A DNA stretch of 51,740 bases from assembly GCA_024681855.1 (NCBI GenBank), contig JAILAB010000057.1:1-51740 (forward strand), read 5' to 3'. The notes under the pieces are model-generated. The model worked only from the letters and a program-made list of their open reading frames with translations, was not told the DNA's origin and did not search any database. How positions within the stretch are numbered: position 1 is the first letter of the stretch; each line of letters opens with the position of its first letter. Source of the DNA: Elusimicrobiales bacterium (GTDB lineage Bacteria > Elusimicrobiota > Elusimicrobia > Elusimicrobiales > UBA9959). The translations under genes and the position numbers were made by a program. Shown in pieces: positions 48,744-51,545 of the stretch.

Positions 48744-48815
48744 CGGGGTGTGGCTCAATGGTAGAGCGTTCGCTTGGGGTGCGAAAGGTTCCGGGTCCGA
48801 TTCCCGGCACCCCGA
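48744..48815 (+). tRNA. tRNA-Pro (anticodon GGG)
   Basis: The cloverleaf is acceptor CGGGGTG/CACCCCG, D-arm GCTC/GAGC, anticodon stem TTCGC/GCGAA with loop TTGGGGT, and T-stem CCGGG/CCCGG. The C1-G72 pair and discriminator A fit proline. The T-loop reads TCCGATT, so position 55, almost always U (pseudouridine), is C. CCA is not encoded. The gene has its own promoter and terminator. Confidence 0.92.
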
Positions 48816-48845
48816 AAAGCACAGTTTAAACTGTGCTTTTTTTTT
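48815..48845 (+). terminator. Terminator of tRNA-Pro
   Basis: A perfect 26-base palindrome (arms 48815-48827 and 48828-48840, AAAAGCACAGTTT/AAACTGTGCTTTT) is followed by more T residues, forming a strong hairpin directly after the tRNA. Confidence 0.88.
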
Positions 48846-49715: not shown

Positions 49716-50336
49716 ATGAAAAGAAAAACACTTTTTTTTATTGCATTATCCCTAATACTTATTCAGACTCCATTATATGCCGGCTTATATGAATTTTCAG
49801 ATTCTCTTGAATCAGAAAAATGGGAGTACAGCGATATAATAGAAAGACGGCATGAAAACTATAATATGGAAAATGTATTTGAAAGCGATTTAGTGAAAAT
49901 GGTTGAACAGGAAAATAATGCCGAAGCTAACAGATCCGAACAAACATTCGATAAGAAGGAAGATAAGGCAATAAAAAATAAGACAAATTCTTTCTTAAAA
50001 TCCAGAAAAAAAACTTTTGAGGAAACTGAAAAAAGAAAGAAAAAAGAAAAGGAAAGAAAAAAATCCGCAAAAGAAAAAAGAGAAGCAAGATTAGCAGAAA
50101 AAAAAGCAGAACAAGAGAAAAAAGACTCATCTGAAAAAAAAGATGAACAAAACGACAAAAAAATAAACACAGAAGAAGAAACTAAAAAAACAGATAAAAC
50201 TAAAAATAAGGATAAAAACAAAAAAAAGATTATAAAAAAAGCGAAACCAGAAAAGGAAAAAGAATCTTCACAAAAAAATAAAAAGGAAGAAAAAGCTCAA
50301 GTAAATAATACAAGCCAAAAAGAAGAGAATAAATAA
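49716..50336 (+). CDS. Exported, extremely lysine/glutamate-rich protein of unknown function
   Basis: A signal peptide (residues 1-22, LFFIALSLILIQTPLYA) leads to a mature part of about 184 residues. The first 60 are of mixed composition (LYEFSDSLESEKWEYSDIIE). From about residue 90 onward nearly every residue is Lys, Glu, Asp, Gln, Asn or Arg, with motifs such as KKKEKERKKSAKEKREAR. This would form a long charged helix or be disordered. Poly-A-rich DNA underlies it, so composition alone may explain the pattern. No family is recognised. A hairpin terminator follows. Confidence 0.6.
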   Translation: MKRKTLFFIALSLILIQTPLYAGLYEFSDSLESEKWEYSDIIERRHENYNMENVFESDLVKMVEQENNAEANRSEQTFDKKEDKAIKNKTNSFLKSRKKTFEETEKRKKKEKERKKSAKEKREARLAEKKAEQEKKDSSEKKDEQNDKKINTEEETKKTDKTKNKDKNKKKIIKKAKPEKEKESSQKNKKEEKAQVNNTSQKEENK

Positions 50337-50384
50337 CATCTTTAAGTTTAAGATAAAACCTGCTCTAATTCAAGCGCAGGAGTG

Positions 50385-50414
50385 AAAAAGCATCCTTTTA
50401 ATTGGATGCTTTTT
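50385..50414 (+). terminator. Terminator with 11-bp stem
   Basis: AAAAAGCATCC (50385-50395) pairs with GGATGCTTTTT (50404-50414) around an 8-base loop, 49 bases after the charged exported protein gene. Confidence 0.85.
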
Positions 50415-50620
50415 TATTTCCTTGATATTTGCTCTCAAAAAAAACAAAAAACTTATTTTTAAGCAAGCTGCTAAAATCAATTTTAAGCCATTTCAGAATG
50501 TTATTTATCGCAAAACAAATAAAAAGCCATTATAACGCATTTTAAAAAAATTATTAAAGAAAAAAAACAAATAAAACGAGAGGGGGGAAGAAATAAAAAA
50601 TGTTTATGCTAATTCTAAGT

Positions 50621-50648
50621 TTATATGTCAATAATTATTGACATATAA
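50621..50648. promoter_or_regulatory. 28-bp perfect palindrome with repeated half-sites (operator-like)
   Basis: The two 14-base arms begin TTATATGTCA and end TGACATATAA and are exact inverted copies. Further half-sites occur at 50656-50665 (TTATATGTCA), 50788-50795 (TGACATAA) and 50798-50807 (TGACATATAA). The last overlaps the -35 box of the promoter of the downstream winged-helix gene, as expected for a repressor site. Confidence 0.7.
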
Positions 50649-50796
50649 GTATAATTTATATGTCAGTAAATTTTTATAGAAATTCTGCTTTAAACTGATC
50701 CATCATAATAAAAGGTAAATTCCAGCCTGTTTGGTTATAAAATATTTAAAACCTCTCCAATTGCTTACAACAATTAACGGCATATAATGACATAAC

Positions 50797-50825
50797 TTGA
50801 CATATAACAAACATTCATGTATAAT
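50797..50825 (+). promoter_or_regulatory. Near-consensus sigma-70-type promoter
   Basis: TTGACA (50797-50802) and TATAAT (50820-50825) are both perfect and 17 bases apart, the best promoter in the window. It points at the winged-helix gene, 57 bases downstream of the -10 box. Confidence 0.82.
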
Positions 50826-50882
50826 ATGACTAATAAGGTTAATTAAATGACTTGCCTCGTTTGGCCATAAAAACTTTTAGAT

Positions 50883-51545
50883 ATGAACAATAATGACAAA
50901 TTCAAAATAAGAATAAAAATACCGTCCGGAGCCGAATTTGAGGCAGAAGGCCCAGAATCATTTATCATAGCCGAAAAAGAAAAATTTTTAAATTTCTTTA
51001 TAAATACTCTATATTCAAAAAAAATCAATCAAGATGAAGAAAATTTCAAACACTCATCAAATACAGAAGTATTAAAAAAAGACATGATAAATTATTCAGT
51101 TTCAAAAAAAGATGAGGAAACGGAAACTAATACTTATGGTTCGTTCCCAGTAACAGTTCAAAAAGGAGAAACTGGCGATAACGGACATTATAATCATGTC
51201 AATGAAAATGACTGGCAGAAAATAACGAAAACAGGGAAAGACGGACGGCTGATATTAATATCAAGGCCAATAACCATGCTTCCAGCAGATGCCATAATTA
51301 TATTATTGGCAGCAGAGCAACAGCTACAGAATATAAAAGGGATAACAGCATTGGCTTTATCAAGAATGCTGAAATCCTCAGGATTCCAGCCTCCAAGGCT
51401 AGACAGAGTATTAACAAACTATATTAGCCTTGGATATATAAGGCATGAAGGAACAAAGCGAAATCGAATCTACATGCTCACAGAAGAAGGATTTCAAAAA
51501 GCCGCGCTGCTGGCCCATTCAATGGCCCAGGAAATTAGTAAATAA
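50883..51545 (+). CDS. Probable DNA-binding protein with C-terminal winged-helix-like domain
   Basis: The 220-residue protein has a short N-terminal domain (KFKIRIKIPSGAEFEAEGPESFIIAEKEKFLNFF) and a polar linker. From about residue 125 there is a helical domain reading PADAIIILLAAEQQLQ, then ITALALSRMLKSSGFQPPRLDRVLTNYISLGYIRHEGTKRNRIYMLTEEGFQKA. The last part matches a winged helix of the type that ends in a wing strand and LTxEG. No Shine-Dalgarno site is visible. The upstream palindrome and half-sites suggest autoregulation. I do not recognise a named family; DNA binding is inferred. Confidence 0.7.
   Translation: MNNNDKFKIRIKIPSGAEFEAEGPESFIIAEKEKFLNFFINTLYSKKINQDEENFKHSSNTEVLKKDMINYSVSKKDEETETNTYGSFPVTVQKGETGDNGHYNHVNENDWQKITKTGKDGRLILISRPITMLPADAIIILLAAEQQLQNIKGITALALSRMLKSSGFQPPRLDRVLTNYISLGYIRHEGTKRNRIYMLTEEGFQKAALLAHSMAQEISK

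Follow-up and report, generated by a model that had tools for sequence, protein, structure and literature searches.

What is the role of a DNA region in which the longest palindrome of its surroundings, several copies of one half-site and a perfect promoter stand together in front of a gene whose product is predicted to be a winged-helix protein? The region belongs to an Elusimicrobiales bacterium, and we call "the window" the whole stretch of 51,740 nucleotides that was analysed. The initial annotation had proposed a repressor acting on its own strong promoter, with DNA looping or cooperative binding, and had kept an iteron-like function as an alternative.

The proposed operator and the promoter of the window

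The longest gapless palindrome of the window is TTATATGTCAATAATTATTGACATATAA (50621-50648), 28 bp long, with two arms of 14 nucleotides which are complementary at 100% and which hold two inverted half-sites, at 50621-50631 on the minus strand and at 50638-50648 on the plus strand. First-order Markov simulations of the whole window (n=100) gave palindromes of at most 22 bp, and a length of 28 bp was reached in 0 of 5000 simulations of the local AT-rich stretch (75% AT, against 58% for the whole window). The exact half-site TGACATA occurs five times at the operator, at 50624-50630 (-), 50639-50645 (+), 50659-50665 (-), 50788-50794 (+) and 50798-50804 (+), the last three lying beyond the palindrome, while 0.16 occurrences are expected locally; none of 5000 simulations reached five. 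The third of these lies in a distal half-site, CTGACATATAA (50656-50666, minus strand).

A sigma-70-type promoter, TTGACA-17-TATAAT, matches the consensus at 12 of 12 positions (50797-50825, plus strand), and its position is conserved in 30 loci. Its -35 box is contained in the last half-site, TTGACATATAA (50797-50807), which is the third member of an array on the plus strand: it stands 10 bp after TGACATAAC (50788-50796), which itself stands 10 bp after a variant site, GGCATATAA (50779-50787), whose position aligns with the arrays of the relatives. These three promoter-proximal sites are direct repeats spaced by exactly 10 bp, a fact which was absent from the initial annotation; what the latter had reported of the palindrome, of the further half-sites, of the overlap with the -35 box and of the unusual AT-richness was found again in full. 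Just past the -10 box, a weak site, TGACTAATAA (50827-50836, plus strand), occupies the place of the fifth site of the relatives and is assigned by its position only. In the same way, TTACAACAA (50765-50773, plus strand) may be what is left, in degenerate form, of the DnaA box TTATCAACA which the relatives have at this place, a weak assignment made from position only.

We rejected the palindrome as an intrinsic terminator: it lacks a T-tract and is poor in G-C pairs, and upstream, at 50379-50420, there is a proper terminator. Elsewhere in the window, Rfam places a tRNA gene within 48744-48840, followed by a 26-bp perfect palindrome with a T-tract, AAAAGCACAGTTTAAACTGTGCTTTT (48815-48840); this second-longest palindrome of the window is an ordinary intrinsic terminator. 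An open reading frame of 206 aa (49716-50336) has a start resembling a signal peptide, then a long region rich in lysine and glutamate, and matches no family.

The winged-helix gene and the sites of its relatives

The promoter is followed by a gene of 220 aa (50883-51545, plus strand), supported by its open reading frame, its conservation and an AlphaFold2 model. In this model the protein is composed of a strand-strand-helix unit (residues 1-53), a disordered linker, longer here than in the relatives, and a predicted winged helix (residues 134-219) over which the pLDDT is above 90 (block of residues 111-220). The relatives compared are metagenome-assembled genomes, those bearing names being Elusimicrobia MAGs, and they share a motif around SGAEFEAEG at the N-terminus together with the C-terminal winged helix. 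Homologs exist in 51 of the 59 genomes of the window's taxonomic family (where a genome shows two matches, these are mostly opposite ends of a single protein). Over the phylum Elusimicrobiota, 116 of 248 genomes have one.

The window's protein matched no Pfam family and had only insignificant matches in NCBIfam; the Pfam cut-off for MarR or PadR was not reached, the best E value being 0.0019 for PadR, in 3 of 19 relatives. A fold search returned MarR, PadR, F93 of an archaeal virus and the partition proteins AspA and TubR, all of them weak matches (best E 3.5e-3, PDB). No similarity to Rep-type initiators was detected in Pfam, NCBIfam, PHROGs or PDB, and our literature search found nothing on this family of winged-helix proteins. 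We rejected the reading of the gene as part of a mobile element, as no relatives were found on plasmids, phages or viral contigs in the collections searched. The gene order around it shows strong synteny in the relatives (sigma factor, apt, TPR protein, outer-membrane proteins, winged-helix gene), and no partner NTPase gene is apparent among these neighbors, which were read by eye only. Downstream, in each of the four loci that were read (L074, L076, L086, L091), about 1 kb without convincing genes stands between the winged-helix gene and the convergent gene which comes next; an Rfam search of this gap found nothing in L076 and L086.

What is conserved in front of the gene in the relatives is not a palindrome but a series of four to five direct TGMCATA repeats over the same promoter. 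A typical locus carries a DnaA box TTATCCACA, 2 bp, a second box TTATCAACA, then TTGACATATG, TGCCATATR, TGCCATATA and TTGACATATA; this last site is the -35, the -10 comes 17 bp later, and behind it there is often a fifth site, TGACATA. The spacings between sites of the same strand are 11 bp (59), 10 bp (41), 30 bp (32), and 22, 31 and 21 bp, all of which are whole helical turns. In the 260 bp upstream of the gene the density is 13.3 sites per kb, against 0.17 per kb in the rest of the 45 loci (about 80 times less), and the relatives at the level of the class (n=19) have 47 sites where 1.9 are expected. A site coincides with the -35 in 30 of the 30 promoters aligned; in 5 of 9 relatives from the sister family an inverted site, TATTATATGTCA, overlaps the -10 as well, which places both hexamers inside opposed half-sites. 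Other families of the order and of the class, more remote from that of the window, have the sites and the DnaA boxes too, but these weaken with distance, and the remotest families (some members of f7 and f8) show few sites or degenerate ones. Over the whole genome of GC-rich relatives, the winged-helix promoter is the only place with runs of overlapping repeat pairs, isolated pairs elsewhere being found at about the control rate. The distal palindrome is absent before the winged-helix gene of the relatives. The palindrome and the repeats of the window are the form taken in this lineage by a binding-site array which much of Elusimicrobiota has conserved.

The closest relative of the window's palindrome is found at another promoter. 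In the relatives a second cluster of sites, often with an inverted pair, precedes the neighboring outer-membrane protein gene, and it is there that the pair ATATGTCA-n6-TGACATATAA is located. Three genomes (G026, G028, G047) have an inverted pair at this adjacent promoter, where it is the sole match of the genome in G028 and G047. At this gene a TTGACA promoter follows the sites by roughly 20-60 bp; at least two sites are present in 19 of 33 distinct upstream regions, at 4.0 per kb, and they are consistent mainly in one genus. The outer-membrane protein gene is likely to be a second target of the regulator in these relatives. We detected no homolog of this outer-membrane protein in the window's genome, nor any second clear site cluster or target there. 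The dispersed regulon which the initial annotation expected a genome search for the half-site to define did not appear: elsewhere in the window's genome the half-site occurs at about chance frequency and mostly inside genes. A wide regulon was discarded for this genome, the other matches checked being intragenic except for one pair (G000:C34:22284-22352), which seems to fall between two genes.

DnaA boxes and the proposed regulation

DnaA boxes within one mismatch are present at 41 of 45 loci, with a density of 5.6 per kb against 0.12 per kb and about two boxes per locus. A tandem pair of boxes exists in 44 of the 59 genomes of the family, nearly always at the winged-helix promoter or upstream of dnaA, many of the dnaA-type matches having been assigned by the pattern TTATCCACA-NN-TTATCCACA from sequence alone; the reversed control pattern gave no match in the 59 genomes, and extra pairs occur in two of them (G005 and G020). 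The window's operator has no DnaA box within one mismatch and its genome no tandem pair, which suggests that in this lineage the boxes have decayed or been lost while the sites and the gene were kept. Two further observations concern boxes away from the winged-helix gene. Upstream of dnaA in many Elusimicrobiota (L041, L038, L040, L042 and others) we found, in reverse, TTATCCACA-AG-TTATCCACA-ACTGTTARTAR, a candidate for a minimal oriC, in which trio-like triplets come after tandem DnaA boxes; and in a single-contig relative a cluster of 8 DnaA-box-like sites lies away from dnaA (G090:C1:338694-339012).

We consider it probable that the window holds the gene of a winged-helix regulator which controls its own expression and has a local and very small regulon, and whose DnaA input, present in the relatives, would have been lost in this genome. 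The region would be the operator-promoter of the downstream gene. From the placement of the sites we infer that the encoded protein is their binder, recognizing TGMCATA(TA) half-sites, and that on the proximal direct repeats, which are in helical phase, it would assemble cooperatively along a single face of the DNA. Such an assembly would cover the -35, and in the relatives also the -10 or the start region, so that the protein would presumably repress its own strong promoter. In the relatives DnaA probably modulates the array and gives it an input linked to replication, because a box pair with the geometry of the pair preceding dnaA abuts the array. From its upstream sites the regulator would also act on the outer-membrane protein promoter. 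The distal palindrome would serve as a binding site upstream, comparable to the inverted pair that precedes the outer-membrane protein gene in the relatives; placed about 155 bp upstream, it may be an extra nucleation site or the remnant of a lost outer-membrane protein operator. Of the repressor first proposed, autoregulation is the part which is best supported, since across the class the sites accompany the gene and are always near its promoter. Looping by way of the distal palindrome is not supported as a general mechanism because the relatives use a phased direct-repeat array without it. A point which counts against our proposal is that a symmetric winged-helix dimer has no obvious fit to direct repeats of 10-11 bp. 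A stronger version, in which a hitherto undescribed Elusimicrobiota regulator, wired to DnaA through a box pair of the oriC type, makes the production of a major outer-membrane protein depend on the state of replication and forms a phased filament on its own promoter, is a speculation to which we give rather low credit.

The same boxes could mean that the locus titrates DnaA or controls its activity, in the manner of datA or DARS, the winged-helix protein being an accessory factor rather than mainly a repressor. The box pair of the dnaA-promoter type is nearly confined to this locus and to dnaA, and several families have conserved boxes next to the sites; however, there are just about two boxes per locus, the sites overlay a promoter, and the boxes have disappeared from the window's genome, where the sites and the gene persist, which makes this reading unlikely in our opinion. 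Another regulator could also bind the sites and have the winged-helix gene as merely one of its targets, as the link between the encoded protein and the sites is itself drawn by inference. Yet the runs of sites are found at essentially two neighboring promoters per genome and co-occur with the winged-helix gene across families, and we are hardly inclined to believe in such a third party.

Origin and terminus tests, and known systems

Since the coding strands are C-rich at third positions, which distorts the raw GC skew and makes it misleading, for G048 and G047 we took the replicative TA skew at fourfold-degenerate sites, with strand correction. In the relative assembled as a single contig (G090, 1.64 Mb) the skew has positive values from 1 to 400 kb and negative ones from 1.2 to 1.54 Mb; dnaA-dnaN, at the start of the contig, is the skew switch, while the winged-helix gene is located at 904.8 kb (0.55 of the contig). 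In the relatives G048 and G047 the TA skew stays positive from one side of the winged-helix locus to the other, without change of sign; in G048 it does change sign at dnaA, although only about 70 kb are available on the far side.

A replication terminus, with an RTP-like winged-helix protein arresting forks at sites which overlap its own promoter, was raised by convergent genes: around 579 kb on contig C15 of G048 the fraction of genes on the plus strand is 0.69-0.97 over 200 kb to the left of the locus and 0-0.22 over 100 kb to the right. The sites are moreover directional, clustered and local, and the gene stands at 0.55 of the contig in G090. But in G048 as in G047 the skew has the same sign to the left and to the right, so the locus is apparently not a place where forks meet, and RTP is not among the 50 best fold matches. 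We therefore set the terminus aside as very improbable; the genes of G048 nevertheless converge on the locus, although the skew keeps its sign there. An iteron-type replication origin bound by a Rep-like winged-helix initiator, a reading suggested by the DnaA boxes and iteron-like repeats and matching the layout of a box pair, four to five phased repeats, an embedded promoter and a winged-helix gene, is largely refuted and scarcely credible, with the skew switch of G090 at dnaA-dnaN far from the gene, no sign change at the locus in G048 and G047, and no match among plasmids, phages, viral contigs or Rep families. Skew argues against oriC in these three genomes, and of the iteron-like alternative the geometry and the boxes of the relatives stood while the origin behavior did not. 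At least in the relatives examined, it seems that the locus serves neither as oriC nor as a terminus.

The autoregulated winged-helix regulator which we propose would define an operator code and a candidate regulator family, widespread in a single, little-studied phylum; no match to it came from Pfam, from NCBIfam or from the collections of phages, plasmids and viruses that were searched. The phased repeats, together with nearly the sole tandem DnaA-box pair outside the dnaA promoter, make a link from replication to the envelope directly testable.

Several known systems share part of this design. In Bacillus subtilis, RTP is a winged-helix protein whose Ter sites lie over the rtp promoter; the likeness is in the winged helix and the sites over its own promoter, but our locus is inside a replichore in two genomes (G048 and G047) and no RTP fold is found in the top 50. 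Iteron origins such as P1 oriR with RepA or Vibrio ori2 with RctB have tandem DnaA boxes, phased repeats, the gene of a DNA-binding protein and a promoter inside the repeats. DnaA boxes next to phased direct repeats occur in the relatives, not in the window, whereas the locus is not an origin by skew in the relatives and the protein is not recognisably a Rep. The autoregulated repressors of the MarR and PadR type resemble our system by a predicted winged helix close to both folds, an operator over the gene's own promoter and, in the window, a palindromic site; they differ from it by a single palindrome in place of direct-repeat arrays, and the protein described here is above the cut-off of no Pfam or NCBIfam model and has an extra N-terminal domain, KLRIKHPSGAEFEAEG. 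Finally, TubR with tubC, and AspA, are winged-helix proteins of plasmid partition which bind repeats or palindromes near their own genes. With them our candidate shares the winged helix, a repeat array at its own promoter and a phased spacing that suggests assembly along the DNA; unlike them, it has no TubZ or ParA partner seen beside the gene and only weak fold matches, it is a conserved chromosomal gene, and it is accompanied by DnaA boxes in the relatives and by a second target at an outer-membrane protein gene.
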